The notes under the pieces: generated by a model
The model's database searches: none
The model's input: the letters and a program-made list of their open reading frames with translations, nothing else
Told to the model about the DNA's origin: nothing
NCBI RefSeq assembly: GCF_018812025.1
Contig: NC_063054.1
Location: forward strand, 39,815,396 to 39,879,395
Length of the DNA: 64,000 bases
Direction: 5' to 3'
Source of the DNA: Megalobrama amblycephala
Lineage: Eukaryota > Chordata > Actinopteri > Cypriniformes > Xenocyprididae
Shown: positions 19,263-58,380 of the stretch, one piece after another
How positions within the stretch are numbered: the first letter of the stretch is position 1
How the letters are laid out: the number at the start of each line of letters is the position of its first letter
Program-made: the position numbers and the translations under genes

Positions 19263-20708
19263 AAGTCGTCGCTGTGGAAAGAGCAGAGGTGTAAAGAGTA
19301 CCTGAAAATCATACTTGAGTAAAAGCAGAAATACCTGACAGCAAAAAATTACTCCCATTACAAGTTAAAAGTGACAAATTCTAATACAACTCGAGTAAAA
19401 AAATATTGGAGCATCTGATTTTAACATTACTTTAGTATTTTACTCATGCTAAATGTAGGCTCAGAGATGCTTTAGTCTTCGATACCTGAGAGAAATGCCA
19501 GTAAAAATAAACAATTGATTTGATTGATGAGAAATCATGTTTATTTTCTGAAATCAAAATAAAACTGAACACCTCAACATTGTAATAAATCAAAAGTCTA
19601 CAAAAAGTGGCATTTTTGGGCACTTGTGCTTAACTGAGACAAGTAAACCAATATCCTTCATAAAGGTCTTGTCAATACAGCAAATAAATAAAATAAGAGA
19701 AGGAATAATCCAAGGCAAGAGAAAAACAAAAAAAGTCTCAGAGATAGAGAACACTTCCTCAGGCAACTGGCTTCAGAACAACTAAACACCAAGCAAAGAA
19801 GCTATGAGACGGAGTCGTTTAAATACACACGGCTGAACGAGACACACAGGGCCATGTGGGTTTGGATTTTGTTTTCCCTTCATAATAAAAACCTTCATTT
19901 AAAAACGGCATGTTGTGTTTATTTGTGTTATCTTTGATTCATATTTAAATTTGTTTGATGATCTCAAACATTAAAATGTGACAAAATGCAAAAAAATAAA
20001 AAATCAGGAAGGTGGCAAGCACCTTTTCACACCACTGTATATAGCACTTTATTCAATAGATTGCTTAAAAGCAAGCAGCTTTACAGTATCAAACATGAAA
20101 AACAGTGTCAGTGCTTCAATTCATCATAAGCACAACTTCATTTTGTACTATTACGGCTATCCAGTGTGCTCATGTTTTCACCCGCGGAGATCTTACCTCA
20201 ATGAACTCAAACACATGAGTCATAGAAGCGTTCCACGCGAGTGAAGGCAGAGCCTCAGCGCACACCTCTTATTACGTTATCGTCACGGACCAATGGTAGT
20301 ACGAATGTGTTTTACAGTGGGTTTTTGTAGTGAAAACCTGGCAACCCTGCTCATCACCGGTGCAGTCATGACCTCATCTCCTAAATCAAACACCTCTGAT
20401 TCACAACTAACTGCTAATGCACTCACATTCATGTAAAGTACAAGTTTGGTTGAGTACAGGCAAGATAAAGTACCTTCAATGCCTTCTTTAGAGCAGAAAC
20501 AAATTGCTGCTGAAAAAGTTAGGTGCCCTGCAAAAAGGTTAATTGCATTACTCATCACAAATGTACAGGAGTTGAAAGTACATTTACTTGTTCAAAAATA
20601 TAGTCAAGTACAGAGTTAATGTTGCTTACATCATTATTTCCAAAAAGCTACTTAAGTACAGTAACTAATTACTGTACATTTACTCAAATACAAAATAATA
20701 CACCACTG
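19263..20708. mobile_element. Transposon-derived block interrupting the 3' end of the FiNZ gene
   Basis: From about 19305 (ACTTGAGTAAAAGCAG) to 20708 (ACACCACTGG) the sequence is rich in ACTCAAGTA/TACTTGAG motifs. These are typical of hAT-like repeats whose end reads CCAGTGGTGTA. Zinc-finger-like sequence resumes right after it. The paralogue on the minus strand meets the same repeat at the same point (about 29690-29730). Several elements may be merged here. Confidence 0.5.
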
Positions 20709-40865: not shown

Positions 40866-40871
40866 CCTGTA

Positions 40872-42193
40872 AGAGAGAGAATTATAGGGTACTATGTGTC
40901 AAAAATGATTGATTTATGGCTCCCATAAAAATATCCCCCCCCCCCCCACCCCTCCCTCTGGACTGGACACCTGTTTGGACACCTGTTTTGGCCACCTGTT
41001 TTTGTCCTCCCCCACTACCCCACTACCCCTCCCTATTACCCTACTAAGGAATTTATGACTGTGTTTTGGACTTTGTGTGTTTTTGAAGTGAAAATGTTTG
41101 AAAACGATCAAAAAGTATTCAAAAATGATGCTTAAACTTTAAAACGTAAAACAGTGTATCGGGACGACAGACGTGTTTTTAAAGGGTTGTTTTTATTAAA
41201 GAATGTTTTTTTAAAAAGACATTAATGAAATGCACAATTTAAAATGTAGTTAGATTTTCTGAAACAAAAGTATAAAACAATCGCATTAACATTAACTATA
41301 TTAAACAATAGTTGTTAAAAGCAAAAATGATTTTACAAGCAAAAACATTTCTAACATTTGTTGTTAAAGTTTTTTAGCAAAAAATACTTCTTACGCTTCT
41401 CTATGAAAGACGTCCGATCTCGTCGGTGACAAACACAGAATGAAATCAGAAGGGGTTGTGAAAATGCTCCCGAGTCTCCTCCCCTAACACGCCTCCAAAC
41501 ATCGACGTCATCCGTCCCTAACACGCCCACATCAATGCCGAAAGATAGAATGTGCACATTTAAAAATAATTAATTAATTAATTAAACACAAGATTTTTTT
41601 ACAAAAACTACCAAACAAATGTGTTAACATTAACTATATTAAACATTTGTTGTTAAAGTATTTTAACAATAAATAATTCTTACACTCTACCATGAAAGAC
41701 GTCCGATCTCGTCGGTGACAAACACAGAATGAAATCAGAAGGGGTTGTGAAAATGCTCCCGAGTCTCCGCCCCTAACACACCTCCAAACATCGACGTCAT
41801 CCGTCCCTAACACGCCCACATCAATGCCGAAAGATAGAATGTATATTTTAAAAAAGGACGTTAATTAATTAATTAAACACAAGATTTTAACAAAAGTATC
41901 AAACAAACGCATTATCATTAAGTATATTAAATAGTGTTGTTAAAAGACAAATGACTTTTAAAAAGCAAAAAACATTTCTAACATTTACTTTTAAAGTTTT
42001 TAACAATAAATATTTCTTACGCCCCCTCCACGAAGCACGTCCGATCTAGTCCATGACAAACACAGAATGAAGCCAGAACGGCGAGTGAAAACACTCCCGA
42101 GTCTCCGCCCCTAACACACCTCCAAACATCGACGTCAGACACGTCCCTAACACGCCCCCCAACACCGGAGGGATGGATTGCGCATGCGTCTTT
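40872..42193. repeat. Left terminal inverted repeat of the Polinton
   Basis: About 1.32 kb, matching the right repeat inverted with few substitutions and small indels. Near the tip is a C-rich run with GGACACCTGTTT repeated. Three copies of a diverged block follow at about 41350-41560, 41640-41850 and 41990-42180. Each includes CAAACATCGACGTCA and CTAACACGCC. The inner edge is at GCGCATGCGTCTTT. Confidence 0.92.
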
Positions 42194-42288
42194 CTTGCGG
42201 AGGGGTGTTTAAAAATGATTCAGCAGTATGCATAAATGCAAGATACGAGACTTGTGATTTTACGTAAACAGAATACTAATCTGCAACA

Positions 42289-42999
42289 ATGGCTGAAGCA
42301 TCTCTACCTAAAACTCCTGAGAGAAGCATTGATGATGCAATGGGAGATCTGTCTCTTGCACCAAGGAAGCCTTTCAGAGGACCGTGTTTGTCCAAATTCC
42401 TGCATAACAACGAGGACCGAGTCAGATATGACTTTCATTTGTCGGGCAACCGCGTGTGTACGTACGACTTCAATAAGATTAGCCGCGAGGTCAAATTGAT
42501 CAATGTGGATAATGACGAGAGATTTACAACGAACTCAACAGACGACCCCGATCTGCTTTTCACAGAAAAGGATTGGATTCTGTTTTACACACAAGTGTGG
42601 CGCGATCTGAAAGAAGGACGCGACGAACCGTTGTTCATCGCCGAATGGAAAGGGGTAACCATGGGGACAAGATACAGGTTACTCGGAGATCATATCAACA
42701 AATATGCAGATGACTATGTTTATATCCTCTGCAGTGATTTTGGAAAGGGGCTGCCTGAATGTTCATGGCCTATATCAGAGGCCGATCATCTGAAATACTA
42801 CGACCTTAAATTCATGTTCCAGTGGAAAGATATACCTGTGTTGGAGGACATTTTTGCTAAAATAGACCAATTGTTTAAGTGGTGCGACGCGTTTGAAAGG
42901 TATAACGGTATTAAAGTAAAACTGTTTCACCCTGAATGGTGCGTACCTACCAGGCGTGGCGTTCAGAGTGTAGCTCCGCCTACATTTTACAACCATTAA
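42289..42999 (+). CDS. Polinton accessory protein, unknown (236 aa)
   Basis: First gene inside the left inverted repeat, with ATG preceded by CTGCAACA. I do not recognise a family. It is a soluble, mixed-charge protein with many aromatics (VYILCSDFGKGLPECSWP, FMFQWKDIP) and a C-terminus RGVQSVAPPTFYNH. It is followed by two further small genes and then an AATAAA at 44205-44210, suggesting an early transcript of three genes from a promoter in or near the inverted repeat. No lesion is seen. Position and lack of virion-type features suggest an early or regulatory role; this is inference only. Confidence 0.75.
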   Translation: MAEASLPKTPERSIDDAMGDLSLAPRKPFRGPCLSKFLHNNEDRVRYDFHLSGNRVCTYDFNKISREVKLINVDNDERFTTNSTDDPDLLFTEKDWILFYTQVWRDLKEGRDEPLFIAEWKGVTMGTRYRLLGDHINKYADDYVYILCSDFGKGLPECSWPISEADHLKYYDLKFMFQWKDIPVLEDIFAKIDQLFKWCDAFERYNGIKVKLFHPEWCVPTRRGVQSVAPPTFYNH

Positions 43000-43038
43000 T
43001 ATAGTCACGGATGGGAGGGTCTACATCATTCAAGCATT

Positions 43039-43707
43039 ATGTCTCAAGAGAGCGCACCTGCTACTTCACCTCTTAGCCCTGCGGCTGGACCGTCACCAAC
43101 ATCGGTGAGCGGATGTCATCAGAGACCCAACTTCTGGCTAAGCAAGCTCTGTACCGAACTGGGTTATCATAACCTGTCTTTCCTCGCAAACTACGGGGCT
43201 ACCGGACACATCTCTGTCCCCACTGCTGAGTCTGACATAACCCTTGATGAACCAGACGATTGTTTGGGTATTGAAGGGATTAAACTTATTAAAGCGGTGA
43301 TTGTTGTGCTCCTGGAACATCTGATTGACAAAAAACTTAAGACGGAATGCGACGGATGCGCTGTGGACCATCCATCGCAGACAAGACACTCATGTCTGTA
43401 TGAACCCTCTGCTTATTATTTTTACGGTGTTTTTAACGAAATAACCAAAACTCTGTTCATACCTGAATTAAAAAACATTCTGGCACGAGCGTTGAGAGCG
43501 TTCGGTTTAACGCCACATCTACAGAGAATTCAAGGATCTGCTGAGACTGTTTTGTGCGAACTCAGGGATGAAATGTACATACAGGAACAACTGGCCTCTC
43601 TGAGACAGAAACTTGTGGACGAGACCTGTGAGCAGATTGTTTACGACGCAGTTGACGCCTGGAAAACTGCCGCACCTGCTTCTACACCTGAGACCGAGTC
43701 GCTGTGA
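43039..43707 (+). CDS. Polinton accessory protein with a Cys/His cluster (222 aa)
   Basis: Begins 39 bases after the previous gene. The N-terminus is Ser/Pro/Thr-rich and likely disordered. A central helical region precedes ECDGCAVDHPSQTRHSCL (about residues 111-128), a C-x2-C-x4-H-x5-H-x-C cluster that could bind zinc. The C-terminal third is helical with heptad character (LCELRDEMYIQEQLASLRQK). Its end overlaps the leader of the next gene by one to two bases. Function unknown; a DNA- or protein-binding regulatory role is possible. Confidence 0.75.
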   Translation: MSQESAPATSPLSPAAGPSPTSVSGCHQRPNFWLSKLCTELGYHNLSFLANYGATGHISVPTAESDITLDEPDDCLGIEGIKLIKAVIVVLLEHLIDKKLKTECDGCAVDHPSQTRHSCLYEPSAYYFYGVFNEITKTLFIPELKNILARALRAFGLTPHLQRIQGSAETVLCELRDEMYIQEQLASLRQKLVDETCEQIVYDAVDAWKTAAPASTPETESL

Positions 43708-43708
43708 G

Positions 43709-44164
43709 ATGGGGAACCTCTGCTGCTGTTCTACATGGTTGATTAAACACTTCTTTAAACAACGTATGAAACGCCAAATATCCAATTTACTGCACAAAGT
43801 GGTTGATGACCCAACATGTAACGATACAGATGATGAACGTTTAACGCAATTAAAGAATCAGATGTGTATAGTGCGAAGATTATCGGACGAATGGGATAAT
43901 ATAACAAACATGTCTATTGCTTCTGGTTGTGATCCTTGTATTATTATCAAAAATATTCTCGAGATGATGCCTGAAAATGCTGAATCGCTTAAGATAGGTA
44001 ACATACTATGTATTTGTACTTATGTAACCGACGTATGTTCTGAACTAATGTCAAGAAATGAGCCTGTTGATGTTTGTAAAATTATTGACACATCAGCTGA
44101 ATACATGGTGGATAAAAATTTTGTAACGTGTATGAAATTTCTGTGTTTTCTGGATGACATATAA
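43709..44164 (+). CDS. Candidate acylated Bcl-2-like protein (151 aa)
   Basis: I take ATG 43709, directly after the upstream stop, rather than the longer frame. The product starts MGNLCCC: Gly2 for N-myristoylation and three Cys for palmitoylation, so it is probably membrane-attached by its N-terminus. Residues 52-63 (MCIVRRLSDEWD) fit the BH3 pattern, hydrophobic-x3-hydrophobic-small-Asp-acidic. A BH1-like block follows at 91-109 (LKIGNILCICTYV). A weak BH2-like part lies near 134-146. BH3-BH1-BH2 order and helical content suit a short Bcl-2 fold. Adintoviruses are reported to carry Bcl-2-like genes. If correct, it would act at membranes in host cell-death control. No C-terminal membrane anchor is seen. 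Confidence 0.55.
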   Translation: MGNLCCCSTWLIKHFFKQRMKRQISNLLHKVVDDPTCNDTDDERLTQLKNQMCIVRRLSDEWDNITNMSIASGCDPCIIIKNILEMMPENAESLKIGNILCICTYVTDVCSELMSRNEPVDVCKIIDTSAEYMVDKNFVTCMKFLCFLDDI

Positions 44165-44204
44165 TTTTGTGTGAAACGTACCCTTTTTCCCTACATGCTT
44201 TGAA

Positions 44205-44210
44205 AATAAA
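44205..44210 (+). terminator. Poly(A) signal after the early three-gene block
   Basis: AATAAA lies 41 bases after the stop of the BH3-bearing gene and before the integrase start. It would end a transcript carrying the first three genes. Confidence 0.6.
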
Positions 44211-44266
44211 AACGCTGTTTGATGTAAACGTCTGGTCATTATTTTGTGGAAAGAGGACGGGGCAAC

Positions 44267-45361
44267 ATGAGTGAATTCATGAAGAAAATATATTACGACC
44301 CAACAAATCCAGGTGCTTTGGGTGGCAAAAGCAGATTAAAGCAAGCGGTACTACATGAATATGGTGTACGTTTAAAAGACAAAGATGTAGCTGATTGGTT
44401 GTCTACTCAGGATACGTATACATTGCATAGAACGGCTCCAATAAAATACAAACGCAACAGAGTAGTAGTGTTCGGGAAAGATCACCAATTTCAGGCAGAT
44501 CTAGTAGACATGAGCGCTTATTCAAAGGAGAATGATAACATCAAATTCTTATTGACGTGTATAGATGTATTTAGCAAATATGCATGGACTAGAGTGTTAA
44601 AGAACAAAACGGGTCAGGAGGTGTCTAAAGCGTTTGAGTCTATATTCAAAAAAGATAAAAGAATTCCTCTCAAGATTCAAACCGATAAGGGGACAGAGTT
44701 CTTAAATAGACATTTTAAACAATTAACAAAAAAGTATAACATACATCATTTTACTACAGCCAGCGATTTAAAAGCGAGCGTGGTCGAGCGTTTTAATAAA
44801 ACATTAAAAGGACGAATGTGGAGGTATCTAACGGCTGTCAATTCCAAGCGCTACTGCGACATATTACAGGATCTGACTGATGGATACAATTCTAGCTATC
44901 ACAAATCTATACGGATGAGACCTTTGGACGTGTGTAAGGAGAATGAGCCAATTGTGTTTAACAACTTATATGGGGGTCTGCGTAAAGAAAAACCTGTTTT
45001 TAAATTTAAAATAGGGGATGTGGTTAGAGTGTCTAAAGTCAGAAATGTATTTTCTAAAGGTTATGAGCAGAATTATACGGAAGAATATTTCACAATAGCA
45101 GCGTGTATACCTCGACAACCTCCCGTATACAAAATACAAGATTACGATGGTGAAATAATCGAAGGAACGTTTTATGAGCAAGAACTACAGAAAATTATTG
45201 TAAATGCCGATAAATCATTTAAAATAGAAAAAATTCTAGACAAGAAACGCCGCGGAAAGTCTATGATTGTACTTGTAAAATGGTGGGGGTGGCCTTCAAA
45301 ATTTAACAGCTGGGTGCCTGAAAAACAGGTGGTGGACTTACAGAGACCCTTAAAGACTTAG
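44267..45361 (+). CDS. Polinton integrase with C-terminal chromodomain
   Basis: ATG 44267 gives 364 residues; an upstream in-frame GTG was not used. The rve-type core holds FQADLVDM (Asp78), a CIDVFSKYAW strand, QTDKGTEF (Asp140) and KASVVERFNK (Glu174), a D-D-x33-E catalytic set as in retroviral-type integrases. An SH3-like segment follows (FKIGDVVRVSK). Residues about 317-364 form a chromodomain (EKILDKKRRG, LVKWWGWPSKFNSWVPE) that could steer insertion to marked chromatin. Expected role: cutting and joining the element ends to host DNA, giving the 6-bp duplication seen here. The frame is intact. A separate N-terminal HHCC zinc knuckle is not obvious. Confidence 0.93.
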   Translation: MSEFMKKIYYDPTNPGALGGKSRLKQAVLHEYGVRLKDKDVADWLSTQDTYTLHRTAPIKYKRNRVVVFGKDHQFQADLVDMSAYSKENDNIKFLLTCIDVFSKYAWTRVLKNKTGQEVSKAFESIFKKDKRIPLKIQTDKGTEFLNRHFKQLTKKYNIHHFTTASDLKASVVERFNKTLKGRMWRYLTAVNSKRYCDILQDLTDGYNSSYHKSIRMRPLDVCKENEPIVFNNLYGGLRKEKPVFKFKIGDVVRVSKVRNVFSKGYEQNYTEEYFTIAACIPRQPPVYKIQDYDGEIIEGTFYEQELQKIIVNADKSFKIEKILDKKRRGKSMIVLVKWWGWPSKFNSWVPEKQVVDLQRPLKT

Positions 45362-45400
45362 ATAACGTATGGCTCGTATCATTTATGCTACAGTATCATC

Positions 45401-46258
45401 ATGGAAGAGGAGGGGTTTTACATTACGCTACCTTGCAACGCCTCGAGGGTCGTATACCCCGAAAACAGTATCTCTAATTACAGAACGAGACTATCTAGGA
45501 CAATTAATTTAAAGGGATTATGGGAGGTTGCTCTGGTTCAATTTGACTACCCTAGTTCGTGGTATGCGTTCTATCAGGAGGACGCAGCCTTCATTATCAA
45601 CTGTGACCAAAGTTTACTGAAAAGCGAAGAAGAACATTATAATGCTAAAGAAGACATTAATATACACATTGATCATAATGTTAAAACCATACCAGTGTTA
45701 CGCAATACCTTAAAGGAGGGGTATTACGAGGATGTGCCCTTTTTACTCAGAGAAATAAATGCGTCCCTCCCCCCACGTGTATATCTTGGTTACGATCATA
45801 TAAAGAATAAGGTATTTCTAAAAGCTCCTCAGAATGTCTCATTGACGTTTTACGGCCAGCTGGCTATTATTCTCGGACTCAAACCAGGTGTTTCTATAGA
45901 GACTACGAAGAGTCTCCGTGAGAATCGAGAAGACAGAGGCGTGACAGTAGTCTACGCTCCCTTTCAAGCTGATATAAGAGCAGGTTTTTACGCCTGTTTC
46001 GTTTATACAGATATAATAGAGTACCAATCAGTGGGTGATGCTTATGTGCCTTTATTAAGCACGGTACATTTAGACTGCGAGCCTAACAAGACCGTCAGTG
46101 TTCGTTACGACAAGCCGCACTACGTGCGCGTAAATAAAAGCAGCATCACAGAAGTTTCCATTGAGGTAAAAGACGACCGAAACCAGAACATTCGGTTCAC
46201 CTACGGAAAGGTAACGGTTAAACTACACTTTAGACCCGTGAAGCAGCATCAGTTTTAA
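45401..46258 (+). CDS. Minor capsid (penton-like) protein
   Basis: 285 residues. The start FYITLPCNAS and the block NYRTRLSRTINLKGLWEVAL, with DYPSSWY after it, follow the pattern of Polinton/adintovirus minor capsid proteins (single jelly-roll penton). The end reads GKVTVKLHFRP. Family role: pentamers closing the vertices of an icosahedral capsid. It lies between integrase and the core protein, in the usual structural block. Its stop codon abuts the ATG of the next gene (TAAATG), implying one polycistronic or tightly packed late transcript. No lesion. Confidence 0.82.
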   Translation: MEEEGFYITLPCNASRVVYPENSISNYRTRLSRTINLKGLWEVALVQFDYPSSWYAFYQEDAAFIINCDQSLLKSEEEHYNAKEDINIHIDHNVKTIPVLRNTLKEGYYEDVPFLLREINASLPPRVYLGYDHIKNKVFLKAPQNVSLTFYGQLAIILGLKPGVSIETTKSLRENREDRGVTVVYAPFQADIRAGFYACFVYTDIIEYQSVGDAYVPLLSTVHLDCEPNKTVSVRYDKPHYVRVNKSSITEVSIEVKDDRNQNIRFTYGKVTVKLHFRPVKQHQF

Positions 46259-46747
46259 ATGGCGTACCTTGCTCAGTACAAAATGGACCCTGAAAGTTAT
46301 ATAGCATACTATCAGAACCAGGCTGGGAACGGTCTGCCTGGTTATATGGGTAACGGTGTAATGTACGGATCGGGATTTGCAGGAATTGGTGGCGTTTTTA
46401 AAAATCTATTTAGAATGGCTATGCCATTCTTAAAAAGAGGTTTCAGTATAGCTAAACCTCATCTAAAAGCGGCAGCAAAAAATATAGTCAGTGACGTCGT
46501 CACCACAGCTCTGACAAAATCTTATAATACTGATAACAAAGGACAGAACGGTAACGGATTAATGGTTATGACGCGTAAAAGATTCAACCCCCCAGGGACC
46601 AGGATGAGAAGGGGGAGTGGCCAACGTGTTAAGAAGTCCAGACGGCCTGGTAAAAAACGATCATTTGCAAGACGGACACAAAGGGCTCGTGTGAAACGGG
46701 TGAAAAAAACTACTAAACTTAAAAGATCTCTGAACACTATTTTTTAA
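46259..46747 (+). CDS. Basic core protein, pVI/core-like, with a protease-type site
   Basis: 162 residues. The N-terminal leader contains MYGSG at residues 35-39. This fits the adenain consensus (M/I/L)-x-G-x|G, so the co-encoded protease may cut after Ser38. The product would begin with a Gly-rich amphipathic stretch (GFAGIGGVFKNLFRMAM). The C-terminal third is very basic (RRPGKKRSFARRTQRARVK) and likely binds DNA. The layout resembles adenovirus-type pVI/core precursors. A structural role linking DNA and shell is inferred. Placed between the two capsid genes, 2 bases before the major capsid ATG. Confidence 0.72.
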   Translation: MAYLAQYKMDPESYIAYYQNQAGNGLPGYMGNGVMYGSGFAGIGGVFKNLFRMAMPFLKRGFSIAKPHLKAAAKNIVSDVVTTALTKSYNTDNKGQNGNGLMVMTRKRFNPPGTRMRRGSGQRVKKSRRPGKKRSFARRTQRARVKRVKKTTKLKRSLNTIF

Positions 46748-46749
46748 AA

Positions 46750-48060
46750 ATGTCTTTATTGCATTGTATGTCAGAAGAATGTGTTAAATCGGAGCTGGAT
46801 CTATTCGCCCTGCCTTTAACACAAACTGCGATTGATAGACATAACTACGTGGAAATTCTCCCATTATCAGCTATTACGGATACATCACCATTAGAATTTT
46901 TTATTGCGGGCACTGGTGAAGATTATCTTGATCTGAATAATACGCTCCTATACACACGCGTCAAGATAACAAATCCTGACGGATCAGATATTCCTGACGG
47001 TGCACCTGTCGGACTCGTGAATTACCCAGGAGCATGTATTTTCAGCCAGGTTGATGTGTCTTTGGGAGATCGTCTAGTCTCACAGAGCTCCAATACGTAT
47101 CCCTATAGATGTATCATCGAAGCTCTTATGAATTTTGGTAAAGGTACTCTGGAAAGCACCTTCACAGCAGGCCTCTTTTACAAAGACACAGCCGGATCCA
47201 TGGATGCCACAGATCCGGGGGGCCAAAACGCCGGCTTGACAAAGAGGGCAGCATTCACAAATGCAAGCACAGTTGTAGAATTATTAGCTCCGATCCATTC
47301 AGATATATTTTTTCAGCCTAAGTTACTCCTTTCGGGAGTCGACGTAAGACTTAAAATGACCCGTGCAAAAGATGAATTTTGTCTGATGGCCGGTAATGAC
47401 GTCGCTTATAAACTCGATATAGTATCTGCGTCCCTTTTTGTAAAAAAGGTCACCGTCTCGCCACCTGTTCGCCTGGGGCACGCTCAGGCCCTTTTATCTG
47501 CAACTGCGAAATACGCGATTGAGAGGGTGTCCGTTAAGAATCTGTCTATACCGGCCGGTGCGCGCGTCTCTAATCATGAGAATCTATTCCTAGGTACATT
47601 ACCAAAATCTATCATTCTGGCCATGACGGACAACGCCGCTTTTTCAGGGGCATACGACAGAAATCCTTTTGCTTTTAAAAATTTTAATCTGGAATTCCTG
47701 GCGCTTTGTCAGGACGGGGTACAGATTCCATCGCGTCCCTTTCAACCGCAATTCGACAACGGATCAGCAGTAAGAGAATTTTATCAGCTGGCTTTAGCTA
47801 CAGGGAAGCATCTTAAAAATCAGTCCCTGGCCATAGACAGAGAGGATTTTCTTCATGGGTACACGCTTTACGCATTTAACTTGACTCCTGATGAAGAATG
47901 CGGTCATCACGTCTCCCTAATCAGAACGGGCAACATCCGTCTGGAAGCGCGCTTCAGAGAACCCCTCAGACATACCATAACTATTATAGCTTATGCTATT
48001 TATGATTCTGTTATTGAAATTTCAAACCGGAGACAAGTGCTTGCGGACTACTATTATTGA
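46750..48060 (+). CDS. Major capsid protein (double jelly-roll type)
   Basis: 436 residues, frame intact. Recognised by the early block DRHNYVEILPLSAITDTSPL, then EDYLDLNNTLLYTRVKI, NYPGACIFSQVDVSLGDRLV and late blocks NLEFLALCQDGVQIPSRPF and LYAFNLTPDE. This matches the hexon-like capsid protein of Polintons/adintoviruses. It should form trimers that build the shell. Its stop lies just ahead of the protease ATG (about 2 bases). Confidence 0.88.
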   Translation: MSLLHCMSEECVKSELDLFALPLTQTAIDRHNYVEILPLSAITDTSPLEFFIAGTGEDYLDLNNTLLYTRVKITNPDGSDIPDGAPVGLVNYPGACIFSQVDVSLGDRLVSQSSNTYPYRCIIEALMNFGKGTLESTFTAGLFYKDTAGSMDATDPGGQNAGLTKRAAFTNASTVVELLAPIHSDIFFQPKLLLSGVDVRLKMTRAKDEFCLMAGNDVAYKLDIVSASLFVKKVTVSPPVRLGHAQALLSATAKYAIERVSVKNLSIPAGARVSNHENLFLGTLPKSIILAMTDNAAFSGAYDRNPFAFKNFNLEFLALCQDGVQIPSRPFQPQFDNGSAVREFYQLALATGKHLKNQSLAIDREDFLHGYTLYAFNLTPDEECGHHVSLIRTGNIRLEARFREPLRHTITIIAYAIYDSVIEISNRRQVLADYYY

Positions 48061-48062
48061 AA

Positions 48063-48596
48063 ATGAATACGGTGCAGTTGACGAGAATAATAGACAAGAT
48101 GGTATGCAACACTAATTTCTTAGGAGTTCTACCGTGCGATCATATCCCCAAAACACAGATAAAGGATTTACCCGTATTTTTTATAGCGAACACAGATCCA
48201 TCACACAGACCGGGTATGCATTGGATCGCCATTTACGTAGACAGAGAAGGTGTAAGCTATTTTTTCGACAGTTTCGGAAATAGACCAGACTCTATTCGTT
48301 TCCCTCCAACCTTCCAAGATTTCCTAAAAAACAATTCCTCCCGTATCCTGCATTCTAACAAGCAAGTGCAGAATGACTTTTCAGACACCTGCGGACAACA
48401 TTGTGTGTTTTTTCTGTATCATATATTAAAAGGATATGATTATGATGATATTATGAAAATGTATTATGACGATTTATTTAAAAATGACAAAATGGTTTCT
48501 CTCTTTGTGAAAAAATTGAAACCGGTCATCTGTAGTGATAAGACCTTTAAATGTGTACAGTGTGTGCAGTCTGGGCATATGTTTCAATCTTATTAA
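48063..48596 (+). CDS. Adenain-type cysteine protease
   Basis: ATG 48063 gives 177 residues (an upstream in-frame TTG is not needed). Catalytic pattern: His53 in GMHWIAIYVD, Asp69 in YFFDSFG, Gln103 (oxyanion) and Cys110 in DTCGQHCVFFLYH. The Gln-to-Cys spacing of seven is as in adenovirus-type proteases. Expected role: maturation cleavage of capsid/core precursors; the basic core protein has a suitable site. No lesion is visible. Confidence 0.9.
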   Translation: MNTVQLTRIIDKMVCNTNFLGVLPCDHIPKTQIKDLPVFFIANTDPSHRPGMHWIAIYVDREGVSYFFDSFGNRPDSIRFPPTFQDFLKNNSSRILHSNKQVQNDFSDTCGQHCVFFLYHILKGYDYDDIMKMYYDDLFKNDKMVSLFVKKLKPVICSDKTFKCVQCVQSGHMFQSY

Positions 48597-48781
48597 TTGA
48601 TGTTTGTGTAGATGAATAATGGTAAAAAAAAAAAAAAAAATGTATCATAATGTGTATGTGTGATGAATAAATGAAATCGTAAAACAAATCTTTTCTCACA
48701 TTCCTTTATTAACGTAAATCACATACATTTAAATAATCATTCACATACATTTAAATAAGCATACATATACATTTATAACGA
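48597..48781. terminator. Convergent transcript ends in the Polinton
   Basis: A plus-strand AATAAA lies at 48666-48671. A minus-strand AATAAA (TTTATT on plus) lies at 48705-48710. They serve the capsid/protease block and the minus-strand block that meet here. An A-run of about 17 lies at 48624-48640. Confidence 0.6.
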
Positions 48782-49573
48782 CTAAAAACTCATCCATGGA
48801 CTTGCATCCAGCGTCGGTGAATTAAACACATTATCGCCTGAAATGTTCGACGGTTGGTTATACGACCACTTTTGCATCCGACGTTTCTTCAGCGACGTTT
48901 TTGGTGTGGCACCCGGGTCTCTTGTAGGTGCTCCTCTTTTAATAGATTCGATTGTTCGTCTAACGTGATGATTGCTTATTGTCGAGAAAGGGATATTTAA
49001 ATTTGCAAATGCCTCCAGAAATTCGTGCCACCCCTCTGGTCTGCGATCATCACGAATATGGTGAGGCTGTGTTATATGTTTCAGTAGATCTAACATATGC
49101 GATCCTTCAATCGTTTTTCCTTTAAAAACAAATTCTCCAGAGTCTGTCCATGAAGACAACTGCTTGGCTTTGGACATTTTATCCATGATGTATTTGATAT
49201 TTTTTAGACTCCTCTGCGGTACATTGCTTAACACCTCATTTACGACCTCGTCCCCCGCTACGTCACCATCATTACGGCTGGCAGCCGTTTCAGTATGCAT
49301 TGCCTCATCAGAGGGCTGGTGCTGAGGTAATTTAAGGGTTAAGATATTGTTTTCCATGTCACCATGCTTCACTAAATTTAAAAATCTCTGTAAAGCATTA
49401 GTATAAAGCTTAGCTTTTTCGTGTGAATTCAGATCGTCCCTCTGTAATATATTCCGTATAGTGTTATCCAAGCTATCTTCCACAACATTGTGAATAGACT
49501 CACGGGGCTGCCCCATCCTCAATTTATCCATCTGCTGTTTAGACACTACATACATTTTTTCAGCATGGTCCAT
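48782..49573 (-). CDS. Polinton protein, unknown, helical (263 aa)
   Basis: Last gene of the minus-strand block. Mostly helical and charged; an N-terminal segment (NSHEKAKLYTNALQRFLNLV) precedes a Gln/Asp-rich linker. A C-terminal globular-looking region follows (PEGWHEFLEAFANLNIPF) and a basic patch (TPKTSLKKRRMQKWSY). I recall similar proteins next to the ATPase in fish Polintons but know no function. A virion-associated role is possible. Frame intact. Confidence 0.72.
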   Translation of the reverse strand: MDHAEKMYVVSKQQMDKLRMGQPRESIHNVVEDSLDNTIRNILQRDDLNSHEKAKLYTNALQRFLNLVKHGDMENNILTLKLPQHQPSDEAMHTETAASRNDGDVAGDEVVNEVLSNVPQRSLKNIKYIMDKMSKAKQLSSWTDSGEFVFKGKTIEGSHMLDLLKHITQPHHIRDDRRPEGWHEFLEAFANLNIPFSTISNHHVRRTIESIKRGAPTRDPGATPKTSLKKRRMQKWSYNQPSNISGDNVFNSPTLDASPWMSF

Positions 49574-49575
49574 GC

Positions 49576-49907
49576 TTATTGTCTAGATGTTATCAAACTA
49601 GAAATAAATGGAATGGCCACGCTTAAGAGGGGTAGAAGAAATCCACCTCTTTGATTAATCATGCGCCTTTTTCTCTTGACATCAATTTTTTTATTAGCTA
49701 CGTATTTAATTTCGTTTTTTCTCTTTTTAATCTTCTGTGCTGACTAGGTGTTAATGGTATTATGCCGTGAAGAATATTAAGAGCTACCTCACACAGCGAA
49801 AGAACAAATTCGTCAGAAGCTGATTGTAAAATAAGACGTCTCTGTTTAGGACTCGCTTTATATAGAGCTTTTAACAGAGGTAGGTTTCTGGATAGTCTCG
49901 AACTCAT
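49576..49907 (-). pseudogene. Small basic Polinton protein with a frame break
   Basis: The first frame (49698-49907, 69 aa) has conserved-looking blocks KASPKQRRLILQSASDEFV, LCEVALNILHG and IPLTPSQHRRLKR, then stops. The next frame continues without its own early ATG from about 49720 to a stop at 49576. It encodes a Lys/Arg stretch followed by QRGGFLLPLLSVAIPF, a Gly-Gly-Phe hydrophobic tail. In related Polinton proteins I recall basic and hydrophobic parts in one chain. A one-base change in or near the A-runs at about 49711-49732 is the simplest reading. A separate 28-aa peptide from ATG at about 49661 is an alternative. Function unknown; possibly virion or membrane-active. Confidence 0.6.
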
Positions 49908-49913
49908 AACGTC

Positions 49914-50612
49914 TCACCGTTTCCTTTTCTGCACGTACACTACAGGACACTCCGACAGTAAATCCGTTCTGAGGCGAAATTTCTCAGGTGTATCCATTTT
50001 ATAGTCTATTAGTAAATATCCATAAGGACGTCCAGTAGCATCTTTGTACGCATCTATAAAAAACTTAGACTCCCCGGGGTACATTTGTCTCCCTAAAAAA
50101 CTTATTTGTTGTTTATCTCGTGGGTTTTTAAAAATAATTAAATAACTAGCGTTGAGACTAATAGTACGAGTACTCTTCCCCTGGAAATACAGGTTTTGTA
50201 TTAGAAATAAGGCTGAAATGGACCTGTGGTGTATGTACTGCGTAAAGAGTCGAGCAATTTCATCATTAGAAGATGCTTGATCCATCAGGTCGTCAATCAC
50301 GAGAAGGGTCTTCTTATTGGCAGGAAATAAAGAATCATCATTCAGGGATTCAGGTAAACCATCAATAAATTTAATATCAAACATATGCATTAATTCATCA
50401 TAAATCGGTTGCCAGCATGCATATATGAAAACATATCTATCAAATTTTACAGAACACATCTTGTGTGAATTATACATCAAAGTTTTCACAAAATACGTTT
50501 TACCACTATTACTAGGTCCCGATACAATAGCGCCAAAAGGATGACGTAATCTAAAATCAAAGTCCTCAGCATCATCCATATTACAATGATTCACAATATT
50601 GTTAGTATCCAT
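49914..50612 (-). CDS. Packaging ATPase (FtsK/HerA, A32-like)
   Basis: I choose ATG 50612 (232 aa), overlapping the polB end by 11 bases; ATG 50579 (221 aa) is equally possible. A longer frame to 50660 lies inside polB. Walker A is GPSNSGKT, Walker B is TLLVIDDLMDQ, and a sensor-type Gln is in ALFLIQNLYF. Expected role: ATP-driven packing of element DNA into the capsid. Position between polB and the small basic protein is usual for Polintons. Frame intact. Confidence 0.88.
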   Translation of the reverse strand: MDTNNIVNHCNMDDAEDFDFRLRHPFGAIVSGPSNSGKTYFVKTLMYNSHKMCSVKFDRYVFIYACWQPIYDELMHMFDIKFIDGLPESLNDDSLFPANKKTLLVIDDLMDQASSNDEIARLFTQYIHHRSISALFLIQNLYFQGKSTRTISLNASYLIIFKNPRDKQQISFLGRQMYPGESKFFIDAYKDATGRPYGYLLIDYKMDTPEKFRLRTDLLSECPVVYVQKRKR

Positions 50613-53600
50613 AAGGTAATGTGGTATAATCAGGCAAGAGCACACGTTTGTTGTAAACAACTCTGAAGGTTTTAACGTTTGATCTATTGTGTAATGTCAG
50701 CTTTGTCTTATTACGCACAATGGTATCAGTGCGCACTAGCAGGTGCGTCGTGTCACGTGATTTCACATAATTCTGAATCAGCCCTATCAGACTTTGCAGC
50801 GTAACTATTTGTGCGTTCTCAGCGTTGAGTGTAATTCCTTTAGCCTTGAGACATACTTTCCCTTTCGCAGTTCTAAAGCCGTAACTTTTAGGTCCTGCCG
50901 AAGCGAATTCTTCTATATGATCGTGAGGATCCAGTTCATCTGTAAGATCACCTAGAAAAGATCCGGTCTCAGGCATCCAGTCATTCGTTTTAGACAAAAA
51001 CACTATGCTGTCTGTGTCCGCATAAATGACCCGTTCGCCTAATTTATCCAATAAATCATAAAGCTTCAAACGCGCATATGCTGTCGTGAAGGCTCCTATG
51101 AACACATTGACGTCACGAGTAGCGCAAGCTAGCTTGTCAGGGTATGTCCATTGTATTAGAGCTACTGAATCCGACACAAACGAGAAATGTTTTATCACAT
51201 AACCGTTCCCAAATATAAACCGTGCAAAGTCCTCCGGTTCACTCACCAGCTCTGTTATTGGTAATTGCTCGCGAAGACAGAATCTCCCCCACAAAGAATT
51301 AAGAATTAGCTTGCTTGTGGCTCGTTTTGCTTGATTGTGAGCAATTTTGTCAATGTTCAATTCGATTCCCTCTTTTAAGAGATACGAATCAATATAAGCC
51401 TGTTTGTCAGTCTCTGTGACTACGTGTGCTGGAAACCCCGACGCCTCTTGTTTGTGTTTGAGGAATGTTTTAACGTAGTCAGTAAATAATGTGTCTGACT
51501 TCTGTTGAAAGTGCCAGACTTCGTCTATTTTCAATACGATATAGCCATGTTTGATGGCTCGCGATAGCTCGACGGAAACCCAACATCCACTTATCGCTCT
51601 TTGTTCGTCTGTGTGACTGCATCGTGTTTGATTCTCTTCCTCCGCGCACGTACGACACAGAGTGAACATTAGCTTCTGACGGGTTCTGAAAGGGAGCACA
51701 GGATGATAGAGGCCTCTAGGGGGCAGCACTGTCGCCTTAATTAGACCAAAGTATTCATCAATAGGGCCAAAGTCTTTAAAAATTATGGTTGGGTGTCCTA
51801 TGGGGTATGTTTTACATGATTGCACGTGGGGGTATAAGGAAGTAAAATCGTAATAATGAATTTTCTGATCCTCTGTGATTTTGTGATATACCTTAAATGC
51901 GTTTGTCCTTCCCCCAAACAACGCATCTCGTGGTTTCAGTCTTTCGGGCGCTTCATATTTTCCATAAATTTCATAACTGACGGATCGTCTTTTTTCGCTC
52001 GCTCCCATTCACATTCCCAGATTGAAACTACATCCAAGGAATACACGTCACGCAGTGTTTGAAGCCTGTTTTCAGTCTGTCGCCTGAGATTTTCGAATGT
52101 CACTTTATGCAGAGGATGGACATCATCGGGTTTAAATTTACAATAATGTGCGTGAAAAAAACACCCTAAATATTCTAATGCCACTTTATGGTTATTATTT
52201 TCATAATATCCATCGAGATGGAATGGACCAAACTGAACTTCACCATAATTCAGTGCGTGACGCACGTCAACATCACGACTTTCTTTGATGTACTCTAACC
52301 ATTGTATCGACGCATTGGAGTACGTCTTGAACTGATTAATGTACGCGTTGTTATGTGTTAATGCCAAAGTATCTTTGCATAGGTAGTTCGTCTTAAAGAC
52401 TTTCATACAAGTTCCTGCCAGTGTCATACATTTGAAAGGGTCAATCTGCGCGCAATTCATGAACTCGTCTCTGAACTTCATACACGCCTGTCGCAGGATA
52501 ATTACGTCATTCCGGCAGTAAAATCCAAGTTCACGTCTGAAATCGAAAATTTTGTTTTGTAAAGAATTATACCACTCATCAAATCTCTCGCGATCGGAGT
52601 TACTCATCGTGTTATATCCGTAGAAATGTTTAGAAGGATACGGACCCACATAATTCACATTCTCAGGTCTGTTGAAGTGATGGGGAAGAATCCTTTTTCA
52701 CCTATGTTCGAGGTCGAACGCAGAGGTAGTTTTAGCCAGCCCCATCGGGAGGAAGCTGAAGCTGTCTATGTAACGCTGTTTAAAAGCAGAGTCATACATG
52801 AAAATGATTTTACAGCCCTGCATTATAATTTTTGGTGCTAGACCTACACTGGTAAAATATTCCAGCAGTATATGAGCGTCGAATCCAGAGGCATTGTGTG
52901 CAATAAATGTGTAATTAGCATATTTTGGTCGTCTAAAATGCTTAATCATAAGCTCCACACAATTTGTGCCTTCTGCTGTGAACTCATCTCCGCTGTGAGT
53001 TAAAGCACATGCGTAGTTTGGCACGTGTTTTCCATCTATGTGCATAGTTTCAAGGTCATAATACACGTACTTATCATCATGTTCATCCAATTTGATAGGT
53101 TGAATGAAACACATGTGTTCGGCACCTTCCACCAAAGTTTCCCTGCAATGTAGGCATTTAGAGGATGCACACTTGTGTTTTTTGTTCTTATTTGTTAAAC
53201 GGTACAATCTACAGCATTTGTCACAATATTTTATAACATCACACTGTGATTTTTCACCTGATATGTGTGATTGTTTATGCGCGTCGTAACAGAAGTTAGA
53301 TTTGCAATATCTGAGACATTCTGCGCATTGTCTGTAACTCTTGGGATAGGAGTGACAATCCGCGCTATTACACACGTTACATGCAAATTTGCATTTATGG
53401 AGCCTCCGGTCATCAAAGCCTTTATAACAGAATAAGCATACGTAACTAGATCCTAGAAAGGCTTTCAAATTTTTTATAAGATAGTAATGGTCATCATGAA
53501 TATATAGATGAACAGTCTTTGGATGTAGTGCATCATAGTTTTTATGCACTCCTAAATTTCCAGACCAATCCCTATGAAAGACAACTATTTTCACACCCAA

Positions 53601-54335
53601 GTGCTGTTCAAAAACAGAAATATCATTAAAACCTATCATCCTTTGTGGGGTGTACCCCGCATCTCTGTGTATATCGGCCCCTATTTTTCTCAATTCCTGA
53701 TCGGTGGAATTAGGATTCATGAAATGTGCTAAACAGTAACTAAAGCACATATTGTCTTCGACATTTACGGGACAGAATAAGTTCATTTTATTCCTTCTTA
53801 TGACTTCATTATGAGCCAAATCTGATAATTTCCTACGTCCTCCGCCCTGTTTATCTCTTACGATAGACACTTTAAGAGTCAGTTGATCATCATTGCACAC
53901 AGATTCATTACTTTGCATGGAATTTTCGATCTGATCTATGAATAAATCTGGATTGTGGTTATTATCAGGTGTTAAAACAGCGTTAATGGGGGCAGGAAGA
54001 CTCTCCCCCGATAGAGACACATTAATATATCCCGTCTGGCCAGCCAGCAATCGGGATAACGATACAATTTCATTTAACGCATTGTGTAGCAAGATGTTAT
54101 ATGCAGCCAGATCAGTAGTTGCCGTAATCTCCCTGAAATTTAGGGTTCTTTGAATTTCTATGCCATTAAATCTTTGACGCGGCGTTATGATATATTCTTC
54201 TACATTACCTCCTTCTGTTACCAACCTACGAATTTCATCATCACTCAGTTCCATATTACGCTCCAAAGTATCGTCATTTGTCCGGCTAACTGAACCATGC
54301 CCTATCTGATCATTTTCATTATCATCCGTAGACAT
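50602..54335 (-). pseudogene. Protein-primed-type DNA polymerase B, broken by a stop and a frameshift
   Basis: Three readable parts. Part 1 (52698-54335): acidic N-terminus; possible OTU-like cysteine protease module (Cys197 in EDNMCFSYCLAHF, His283 in HDDHYYLIKN); Cys/His-rich zinc region about 300-409; ExoI YYDLETMH; ExoII FIAHNASGFDAH. It ends at an in-frame TGA (52698-52700). Part 2, same frame (51936 to about 52697): family block ENVNYVGPYPSKHFYGYNTM and ExoIII YCRNDVIILRQACMKF. Part 3, another frame (50602 to about 51970): motif A YDFTSLYP, motif B KLILNSLWGRF, motif C YADTDSIVF, and the end LLPDYTTLPYGY. The frame switches near 51955-51970. All catalytic motifs survive, but no full-length protein is readable. 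Family role: replication of the element. Confidence 0.88.
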
Positions 54336-54370
54336 TTCTAACCATTCATTTTGCTCGTTTATGAGACGTT

Positions 54371-54532
54371 CTAGGCTGACAGGTGTATTTTCACCCGTGC
54401 CATCAACATTTGTAGTTGATCTCTTATTAATGTACGTATCTGTTCATCGTTCGTTCTAGGTCTTAATACTATTTGTTCATTATCATCGTCATCAGTATGA
54501 TGTGAATCATCGCGACACCTTTTAGAAGTCAT
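54371..54532 (-). other. Short ORF upstream of polB
   Basis: ATG at 54532 opens 53 codons of acidic, polar sequence (CRDDSHHTDDDDNEQ then IRTLIRDQLQMLM), ending at 54371. It lies in a different frame from polB, 36 bases before the polB ATG at 54335. The polB frame is itself open without an ATG upstream to about 54430. It may be the true polB N-terminus cut off by another frame change, or an upstream ORF. I cannot decide. Confidence 0.35.
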
Positions 54533-54803
54533 TTTTGTTTTTTATTTATTATTTTTCTCTCTCTCTTAGAAACAAACGCTTGCTCCGCCTTCCCCACACA
54601 CAATTATAAAACGTTAAAAGTTACAAAATACATATCAAAATATGGCACAATGTGTAATATCAGTAAATAGCATACCATCGGTACCAAAAATAGCGAATGA
54701 CTTTCAGATTATAAACAAACACTTAAACACATGCATACAAAATTATCGATAACAAAAACAAAACAGTCAGCATGTAGAATTAAGTATTATCTCATCATCA
54801 TCA

Positions 54804-55118
54804 TCATCTATCCCTTCCCATAATGATATTTTGTAAATCCAATAACACCCTTTGAATAATATTTAAGCGTTCAGACATTAGACTTAACGCAACAACGGAA
54901 AGCTGTTGTTCTCCCCTTACTTCTGAGAGCGTAGCCTGCAGTTGTCTGTTTTCATCCAGAAGCTGATTATGAGCGTTCATCCAGAAATCGGCAGCGTGGC
55001 TTAGGGCAATGGTGTGCTGTTGTTGACACGCTATTATATGTTCTGTAGGATGGATATCACATCGGACTGTGAAGAGCGTACAATCTCTTCGACCTCTTGA
55101 TATGATAAAGGAAGGCAA
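54804..55118 (-). CDS. Possible coiled-coil protein or alternative exon (104 aa frame)
   Basis: The frame overlaps the last 85 bases of the spliced gene's final exon in another phase. From AADFWMNAHNQLLDENRQLQ onward it is a strong heptad-type helix (LSVVALSLMSERLNIIQRVL), ending IIMGRDR. A CATCCTACAG acceptor-like site at about 55040 could splice the helix onto the upstream exons in place of their last residues. No good donor was found. Real, but start and linkage are unsure. Confidence 0.45.
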   Translation of the reverse strand: MPSFIISRGRRDCTLFTVRCDIHPTEHIIACQQQHTIALSHAADFWMNAHNQLLDENRQLQATLSEVRGEQQLSVVALSLMSERLNIIQRVLLDLQNIIMGRDR

Positions 55119-55361
55119 GCTAAATTCAAAATTCGTTTAAAATTCCGGTTGATCTTGTTCATCAAAGAATAGCTGAGTTGTGGCAGATGTTGTTCGTTAA
55201 AAAGATATCCTGTATCGTCCTCGTCCTCATCCGAGCTTGAATCAGAATCGAAATTGTTGCAAGCCTCCTCCTGGGATTCCACGTATAATGTTAGACCTCT
55301 CTCGTCGTAATCTTGGTCTGTGTAAATACAATTTAAAGTTTATTTATTAAATGTATCATGC

Positions 55362-55395
<34 letters not shown>

Positions 55396-56081
55396 CATCG
55401 TCTTACCTATATCCGCCGACGCGCTTAAACACCCTTCTTTTGGCAGAGGACGGTCGCTTCCGTAGGCCTCCCTAAGCCTCTTCCTCCCACATCCTGATGT
55501 GGACGGGATGGCATCGTCACCATCTCCGTTATATAGCGTAGGTAAAGGTACTGCTCGTTCTCCGTACACCTCTCGGAGTCGCTTTTCTCCACGCCTGACA
55601 CAGGTCTGGTAGACGCAATCACGCCTGTGCCCTGTTGCGAATGCGTCGGGACAGAGTCACAACGCTTCTCGCCAACTGGTTTTTCGGGAGGAGGAGGTGG
55701 AGGTATGTTGGAGGCGTTGTTTTCAGGGCCTGTGATGGAGATTGGCTGATCATAGTCGCCGGCGGGGGATTCAATCGACACTACTTCTTCTGTTGAGAAA
55801 ATTACAAGCATATGCTTATGAACAATAGAAAAATCTCTCGATAGCATTGAAAAGAATAAATTGTTTGTCCATATGACTACCTTGCAAGACATCATGAACC
55901 GCAGCACCCCTAAGAAATGCATCATCAACTGAGAGAAAAAAGAAAAGAAAAAACACATTATTTAATAGACTATTTATTAATCATGATTTTTTAATGGTGA
56001 GCGAAATGATACTTACTTATTTCATCCAGAATAAGATCTAGTCCTTCGTCGAAATAAAGAACCTCTTCATTCACATCTATG

Positions 56082-56115
<34 letters not shown>

Positions 56116-56198
56116 CATTGAAATTAAGATAGTTCAAAACATGTATGTGCACGCTCTACTTATAAAATAGAGTACTCACCGATGTTGTTAGCAGCCAT
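55034..56198 (-). CDS. Five-exon spliced Polinton gene for an acidic, nuclear-looking protein
   Basis: Exons: 56180-56198, 56017-56076, 55881-55928, 55407-55789, 55034-55317. Donors are G|GTGAGTA, A|GTAAGTA, AAG|GTAGTC and ATAG|GTAAGA. Acceptors follow pyrimidine runs (T-run then ATCATAG; TTTTTTCTCTCAG; TTTTCTCAACAG; TTTACACAG). Phase 1 is kept at every junction except within exon 4. There the frame from exon 3 (VVSIESPAGDYDQP, a six-Pro run) must move by one base to reach the frame that joins exon 5; an A-run at about 55582-55585 is the likely place. The predicted ~264-aa product has an acidic N-terminus (DEGLDLILDEI), two KRLRE basic repeats like nuclear signals, and a Ser/Asp/Glu tract (DSDSSSDEDEDD). 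No canonical LxCxE is present. Its place furthest upstream on this strand suggests an early regulator, perhaps like adintovirus oncoids. Function is inference. Confidence 0.68.
56087..56115. repeat. A/T homopolymer in intron 1 of the spliced gene
   Basis: A run of 29 A on plus (T on minus) immediately precedes the exon 2 acceptor and serves as its pyrimidine tract. Length is likely unstable. Confidence 0.8.
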
Positions 56199-56857
56199 CC
56201 TAACAATGACGATTGGATAATGCGATGTGGTAGCTCCTGTCGAATCTTTGTTGTAAATGGCATCTTTCTGACATTTTTTTAAATCTAATCGGACTGAGGG
56301 GCGTTTCTGACGGTTATAAAGTTCTGGGTTGTCTTCTGAGCTGTCACCTACTGTGTCAAAAACCTTAAACCTTTTTTAAAATCTCTTAGCGTAGCTCTAT
56401 TCTATATCTTTACATATTGTAGAGGAGTACATCATTCCCAGCGTGACATTTCTGATAATATTATAATACGATATGTTACACCACTACTATTTATTAATTG
56501 ATGCATCAAATTACATGAGCCTGAGAAAAACGCATCCTCTCCCGCTCAAACTTGCTGCTCATTTACACATTAGAGCGTATGCTCTTATGATCAAACGATC
56601 CTTTCAGCCTTCTCCTTAACTCTGCGTGGTGCGATCATTATCTGTATCATAAACACACTAGGCCGCATCCCGCTCAAAACATCGCCAGGACTCCGCAGGT
56701 ATGTATGTGCGTAGGTGCATGCGCGCGGTCGTCTTACATCTTGTCAGGGGTCACTGAACCCCGTCCTTCCTTAACCCCTGTGCGAACTCAACAGACACCC
56801 CTGCAATAAAACAATTCCGGGGACATCAATAGGAAAATAATTATCTATATGTAATTA

Positions 56858-56909
<52 letters not shown>

Positions 56910-57048
56910 CGTACGTGTGTGTGTGTGTGTGTGTGTGCGTGCGTGTGATAAATGTCTGATACGTTAAAAGCGTTAGTCCTGTACACATTCGTAGTGAACT
57001 AAGTCCATTAAAGTATTATTATTTATAAGAGTTATTTTATTATCATTT
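56199..57048. promoter_or_regulatory. Upstream region of the spliced Polinton gene
   Basis: A minus-strand TATA-like ACTTTATAACC lies at 56312-56322, about 115 bases before the ATG, with GGGGCGT/ACGCCCC GC-box-like sequence nearby. Further out are AT-rich sequence and a (GT)n microsatellite at 56861-56947. I see no gene between here and the right inverted repeat. Confidence 0.45.
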
Positions 57049-58374
57049 AAAGACGCATGCGCAATCTATCGCTCCGGTGTTGGGGGGCGTGTTAGGGGTG
57101 TCTGACGTCGATGTTTGGAGGTGTGTTAGGGGCGGAGACTCGGGAGTGTTTTCACTCGCCGTTCTGGCTTCATTCTGTGTTTGTCATGGACTAGATCGGA
57201 CGTGCTTCGTGGAGGGGGGGGCGTAAGAAATATTTATTGTTAAAAACTTTAAAAGTAAATGTTAGAAATGTTTTTTGCTTTTTAAAAGTCATTTGTCTTT
57301 TAACAACACTATTTAATATACTTAATGATAATGCGTTTGTTTGATACTTTTGTTAAAATCTTGTGTTTAATTAATTAATTAACGTCCTTTTTTAAATATA
57401 CATTCTATCTTTCGGCATTGATGTGGGCGTGTTAGGGACGGATGACGTCGATGTTTGGAGGTGTGTTAGGGGAGGAGACTCGGGAGCATTTTCACAACCC
57501 CTTCTGATTTCATTCTGTGTTTGTCACGGACGAGATCGGACGTCTTTCATGGTAGAGTGTAAGAATTATTTATTGTTAAAATACTTTAACAACAAATGTT
57601 TAATATAGTTAATGTTAACACATTTGTTTGGTAGTTTTTGTAAAAAAATCTTGTTTAATTAATTAATTAATTATTTTTAAATGTGCACATTCTATCTTTC
57701 GGCATTGATGTGGGCGTGTTAGGGACGGATGACGTCGATGTTTGGAGGCGTGTTAGGGGAGGAGACTCGGGAGCATTTTCACAACCCCTTCTGATTTCAT
57801 TCTGTGTTTGTCACCGACTAGATCGGACGTCTTTCATAGAGAAGCGTAAGAAGTATTTTTTGCTAAAAAACTTTAACAACAAATGTTAGAAATGTTTTTG
57901 CTTGTAAAATCATTTTTGCTTTTAACAACTATTGTTTAATATAGTTAATGTTAATGCGATTGTTTTATACTTTTGTTTCAGAAAATCTAACTACATTTTA
58001 AATTGTGCATTTCATTAATGTCTTTTTAAAAAAACATTCTTTAATAAAAACAACCCTTTAAAAACACGTCTGTCGTCCCGATACACTGTTTTACGTTTTA
58101 AAGTTTAAGCATCATTTTTGAATACTTTTTGATCGTTTTCAAACATTTTCACTTCAAAAACACACAAAGTCCAAAACACAGTCATAAATTCCTTAGTAGG
58201 GGTAATAGGGAGGGGTAGTGGGGTAGTGGGGGAGGACAAAAACAGGTGGCCAAAACAGGTGTCCAAACAGGTGTCCAGTCCAGAGGGAGGGGTGGGAGGG
58301 AGGGGTGGGGGGAATATTTTTATGGGAGCCATAAATCAATCATTTTTGACACATAGTACCCTATAATTCTCTCT
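57049..58374. repeat. Right terminal inverted repeat of the Polinton
   Basis: About 1.33 kb, the inverse of 40872-42193. Differences are few: scattered substitutions, a changed C/G-run length near the tip, and one fewer AG at the very end. The three internal blocks are seen at about 57060-57240, 57400-57560 and 57690-57850. Confidence 0.92.
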
Positions 58375-58380
58375 CCTGTA

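Follow-up and report, generated by a model that had tools for sequence, protein, structure and literature searches.

The adenovirus E1A gene is spliced, lies near the genome end and encodes acidic regions and a nuclear signal, while the pRb-binding LxCxE sequence is the usual motif of the oncoid class of viral oncogene-like genes. In excerpts from PMC11071296 and PMC10812802, adintovirus accessory "oncoid" genes are named as a class and are described by "short linear motifs of interest". In the case of vertebrate Mavericks, the genes of intact elements were described, in excerpts from PMC8097293, as having no introns, with the accessory regions located outside the core. Moreover, Maverick expression in early zebrafish embryos was noted in an excerpt from PMC9341512. 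Here, a 64-kb stretch of DNA from Megalobrama amblycephala (hereafter, the window) was analyzed and found to contain one Maverick/Polinton. This fish Maverick carries an accessory gene with a predicted five-exon spliced structure, whose product, at about 340 residues, is likely a nuclear early regulator.

The location of this gene inside a Polinton was confirmed by the terminal repeats, the 6-bp duplication and the integrase, protease and ATPase matches (Table 1). The terminal repeats were 99.6% alike, with 1205 of 1210 aligned bases identical between 40936-42150 and 57090-58305 (11 gap columns), and AG repeats were present at the ends of the element. An adenovirus-type protease (Peptidase_C5, 31.3 bits against a cut-off of 21.3) and a packaging ATPase (Pox_A32, 24.0 bits against 22.8) were also detected, and the integrase with chromodomain likewise exceeded its Pfam cut-offs. 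Candidate capsid open frames were found at the expected places, had no Pfam match and were assigned by position only. PolB was spread over three open frames (50602-54335, minus strand) and is thus broken in the window copy, despite the close similarity of the terminal repeats; the match to protein-primed PolB (PF03175, 21.6 bits, under the cut-off of 25.8) came from the first of these frames only. The gene order bore out the proposed position of the spliced gene at the upstream end of the minus-strand module, that is, at the outer end ahead of PolB. As in the vertebrate Mavericks of PMC8097293, as excerpted, the spliced gene lies in an accessory region outside the PolB module, and the element has AG-type ends, a 6-bp duplication and two inward-pointing modules of core genes. 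However, whereas intact elements were seen as intronless in that paper, the accessory gene described here has four introns; the difference does not concern the core genes.

Table 1. Features of the Maverick/Polinton and of its spliced gene, in positions of the window.
Feature	Positions	Strand	Basis
Maverick/Polinton, 17,503 bp	40872..58374	.	terminal repeats; ends and duplication read from sequence
6-bp target duplication CCTGTA, flanking the element	40866-40871 and 58375-58380		read from sequence
Left terminal inverted repeat	40872..42142	+	self-alignment; outer end read from sequence
Right terminal inverted repeat	57098..58374	-	self-alignment; outer end read from sequence
Integrase with chromodomain, core gene	44246..45361	+	rve E 3e-11, Chromo E 7e-8 (Pfam)
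First PolB open frame, next gene downstream of the spliced gene	52698..54335	-	open frames and Pfam
Exon 1, 19 bases, MAANNI plus one base	56180..56198	-	donor kept in 10/10 near-full sisters; P0002 has the same start and junction
Exon 2, 60 bases, acidic	56017..56076	-	splice sites and sister copies; 60 bases in L014 and L015, 54 in L013
Exon 3, 48 bases	55881..55928	-	splice sites and sister copies; 48, 45 and 48 bases in L013, L014 and L015
Exon 4, 383 bases, proline run and KRLRE motifs, frame broken	55407..55789	-	384 bases in 7/10 sisters
Exon 5 to the originally predicted stop, Ser/acidic tract and start of helical part	55034..55317	-	
Exon 5 remainder, helical C terminus	54804..55033	-	other frame in window copy; continuous in 9/10 sisters

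Several other features were observed in the window. The accessory open frame at 43613-44164 (plus strand) weakly resembled Bcl-2 (PF00452, E 0.035), scoring 15.1 bits where the cut-off is 31.4, and its AlphaFold model, built without an alignment, was uninformative (pLDDT 38). A second accessory open frame (43039-43707, plus strand) contained the Cys/His pattern CDGC..DHPSQ..H.C and matched no Pfam family at the cut-off. Tandem 84-base units and their inverted counterpart about 11 kb off were present (18189-19276 and 29741-30300), and the unit length suggests candidate zinc fingers.

All four introns of the spliced gene had GT..AG ends at the places given in the original prediction, as it had claimed. 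Its statement that phase 1 is kept throughout did not hold for the window copy, as the length of exon 4 does not carry the frame through and the KRLRE repeats lie in another frame than the proline run. Likewise, the gene does not end at 55034. The stop there results from a frame break, and nine of ten sister copies stay open for another 80 residues or so, ending at the equivalent of 54804, while the tenth breaks soon after the homologue of 55034. With frame breaks in both exon 4 and exon 5, the window copy is unable to make the full protein.

Sister copies were obtained by searching the host genome with exon 5, which gave 15 places: the window, 11 other young copies (93-98% identical at the protein level) and three distant copies (35-48%). 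Ten of the 11 other young copies were near full over the gene, and L011 kept only exon 5 onward. In these ten near-full sisters, 79 of 80 splice dinucleotides were kept; the four donors and the first three acceptors were intact in all ten, and the fourth acceptor was lost only in L006. Thus, the splice sites are conserved in related elements. Exon 4 was out of phase in three of the ten and exon 2 in two. All four inner exon lengths were in phase in six sisters, one of which had stops in exon 4. These frame defects indicate that broken copies are common, and some copies are open through exons 1-5. The PolB start lay downstream of exon 5 in 10 of the 11 other young copies, with L006 as the exception.

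The codon-position signal was determined in the window and ten young copies. Variable columns at codon positions 1, 2 and 3 numbered 24/338, 21/336 and 52/336, respectively (Fisher P = 2e-5), so that the frequency of variation at third positions was about 2.3 times that at the other two. The signal runs in a frame that crosses all four introns and was found for exons 1-4 alone (P = 4e-4) and for exon 4 alone (P = 0.002). Variation among the young copies was 0.185, 0.136, 0.066 and 0.067 in introns 1-4 and about 0.10 in the exons. As the exon value is not under that of introns 3 and 4, the signal reflects a codon rhythm and not quieter exons. Comparison of the young copies with the three distant copies, L013-L015, gave pN/pS values of 0.46-0.54 in nine comparisons (e.g., 0.49, 0.38-0.62), and the same trend was seen in a DNA alignment of young and distant copies, with differences of 72/189, 62/188 and 92/188 at positions 1, 2 and 3. 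At about 45% amino-acid identity, L013-L015 each keep the exon phases and seven of eight splice dinucleotides.

Annotated copies of the spliced gene were identified among the NCBI gene models of M. amblycephala, which are possibly partly computed. LOC125262163 (P0002, on the contig of L012) starts with MAANNI and uses exactly these four junctions. LOC125256771 (P0001), from the contig that contains L008, begins within the sequence of intron 3, which it reads through, and uses the fourth junction. Both are listed as "uncharacterized protein", under names that carry no link to Mavericks; one runs into PolB and the other starts in intron sequence. The onward splice of P0002, from inside exon 5 (window position about 54930) into PolB, may reflect either a genuine alternative transcript or an error of the model. 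The proposal of a spliced Polinton gene was upheld, at the level of sequence and gene models, by conserved splice sites, by a codon signal that spans the introns and by an NCBI model that shares the junctions. Accordingly, the five-exon gene is real as a predicted spliced gene, longer than originally stated, and the window copy is broken.

Homologues were also found in other cyprinids. In a protein alignment search in which 7995 candidates were scored, at least 14 proteins matched; P0011, P0013 and P0014 were dropped as they matched through the PolB tail of P0002. Among the matches listed were P0001, P0002, two stand-alone homologues and seven proteins linked to the distant copies. The stand-alone homologues were from Pseudorasbora parva (P0009, 331 residues) and Phoxinus phoxinus (P0012, 350 residues), and they have in common with P0001 the motifs RGxKRLRExYG, QD..GL and NRNFxRIL and a C-terminal helical stretch. 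A protein search with exon 5 alone gave none of 46 candidates at E 0.01, and no match was confirmed in the viral_contigs scans. The Pfam and PDB searches gave nothing beyond coiled-coil matches or weak ones under the threshold (best E 0.0036), with no fold or family match indicating DNA binding or transactivation, and a title- and abstract-level literature search found no title or abstract on the spliced gene or its link to TRIM genes. Thus, the claim that no described family matches stood in part: there is no Pfam or PDB family, but NCBI lists uncharacterized members, and the adintovirus oncoid is, in excerpts from PMC11071296 and PMC10812802, a named loose class.

The protein features are consistent with a nuclear role. 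P0002 has a net charge of -15 in its first 70 residues and of -11 in its Ser/acidic tract. KRLR was present in all four stand-alone proteins, and a K-K/R-x-K/R motif in all four of these and in six of the seven TRIM-linked proteins. The C-terminal piece of exon 5 was modeled as two helices (AlphaFold, mean pLDDT 65). In a heptad test of three homologues, the score was reached by 73/300, 207/300 and 17/300 shuffles; two of the three thus failed and coiled-coil periodicity was clearly above shuffles in only one, which speaks against the nuclear-regulator reading, as does the lack of a Pfam or PDB match pointing to DNA binding. Taken with the outer position and the host-type introns, the acidic tracts, the K-K/R-x-K/R motif and the helical C terminus make the role of a nuclear early regulator plausible.

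The three distant copies, L013-L015, are tandem paralogues on contig C14, in which exons 2-5 of a relative of the spliced gene are preceded by TRIM exons whose phase matches. The TRIM exons are upstream on the same strand in all three: L014 has a B-box and a coiled coil, L013 has coiled-coil parts, and only the last TRIM exon was present in L015 within the 9.9 kb read. In all three, the last TRIM exon ends in phase 1 with GAG/GTAAAG (the slash marking the junction). This is compatible with the exon-2 acceptor, also of phase 1, which in L014 lies about 1.4 kb further on. The former exon-1 donor is AT instead of GT in 3/3, as would be expected had exon 1 fallen out of use, and these copies stop early in exon 5. 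The reading of L013-L015 as plain decayed Mavericks was dropped, since the gene models placed TRIM exons upstream. In the 16.2 kb read around L013, a search at E values up to 1e-3 detected no Maverick core gene. TRIM parts were joined to exons of the spliced gene in models of Megalobrama, Chanodichthys, Ctenopharyngodon and Anabarilius, while three partial Culter models contained the captured exons only. The B-box and the TRIM coiled coil were above the cut-off in P0003, P0004 and P0010; in P0008, the B-box was above and the coiled coil below. In an unrooted tree of 8 of the 11 proteins, the captured sequences formed one group with a support of 99. The grass carp TRIM-linked model, P0008, runs on into a Ulp1/SENP-type protease, and pieces matching this type were also found downstream of L013 in M. 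amblycephala (L016, 5018-4869 and 7828-7141).

TRIMCyp has a TRIM front half followed by exons from mobile sequence. The TRIM-linked copies are built likewise, but their added part comes from a Maverick gene, and no codon constraint was found in the three paralogues (18/177, 19/177 and 15/177 variable columns at positions 1, 2 and 3, P = 0.54; 23/262 in introns 2-4). This argues against a host function of the TRIM-linked copies, and the TRIM fusion is consequently a result of gene models and splice phase. It is conceivable, and in our estimate doubtful, that a TRIM gene captured exons 2-5 through the matching phase-1 splice sites, trading its C-terminal target-binding domain for a viral part, and that the resulting antiviral chimera would join the complexes of the viral regulator by the shared domain and mark or block them.

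Other explanations for the spliced gene were compared with that of a nuclear early regulator. Chance splice signals around leftover open frames would agree with the DNA-level result that exons are not more alike than introns between the two lineages, both being near shuffled values. However, simple chance splicing was rejected on the 79/80 kept dinucleotides, the pN/pS near 0.5, the codon-position signal, the conserved phases and the independent gene models, and we regard it as extremely unlikely that no gene exists. An adintovirus oncoid of the pRb-binding kind, acting like E1A or E7, is suggested by a spliced early gene beside the genome end, by a Ser/acidic tract next to Cys and by the oncoid genes that adintoviruses are said to carry (excerpts from PMC10812802 and PMC11071296). 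The likeness to the adintovirus genes, as excerpted from PMC11071296 and PMC10812802, extends to an accessory gene in an element with PolB, an rve integrase with chromodomain and an adenovirus-like protease. However, LxCxE was absent from the family part of 11/11 proteins, the single match, in P0004, being in an unrelated tail, and the pRb-binding reading, which appears very improbable, was rejected on this ground. In comparison with E1A, the gene is likewise spliced, near the genome end and equipped with acidic regions and a nuclear-signal-like motif, but it has no Pfam or PDB sequence match, no LxCxE and another exon structure. It is rather unlikely that the product is instead a partner of the neighboring PolB, as a replication or priming accessory protein. 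The gene comes first on the PolB strand and is closely followed by PolB in 10/11 other young copies, and one NCBI model splices exon 5 onward into PolB; against this stand the lack of a replication-protein family or fold match in Pfam and PDB, the acidic, low-complexity make-up with a nuclear-signal-like motif and the occurrence of the onward splice in one of two models only.

The gene may also be a host gene taken up with its introns, of which the TRIM-linked copies would be the older form. Introns are unusual for Maverick genes (PMC8097293, as excerpted), and the TRIM-linked copies occur in four or five genera. This origin is nevertheless improbable, as exon 5 of the TRIM-linked copies breaks off early and their exon-1 donor is changed, the conserved C terminus is still present in stand-alone forms of three genera and the TRIM-linked forms are one clade in the unrooted tree. 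These observations suggest that the fusion ran from virus to host, a direction that applies to the TRIM fusion and not to the first origin of the gene.

For the favored reading of a nuclear early regulator, transcription would run inward from beside the right terminal repeat, ahead of PolB, and the transcript would be spliced by the host in the nucleus. The protein would then enter the nucleus via its KRLR motif and may pair through the helical C terminus, while the acidic N terminus and the Ser/acidic tract would bind regulators of the host or the virus ahead of replication. That a spliced gene is conserved at this outer position implies host nuclear splicing for an early step, as in nuclear DNA viruses, and thus offers a concrete entry to how Mavericks switch on. 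Moreover, with the TRIM-linked relative it can be tested whether an immune-type gene of the host took up exons from a virus-like element. If the antiviral reading is true, cyprinids would be using the early regulator of the virus as the targeting domain of a TRIM directed against it.
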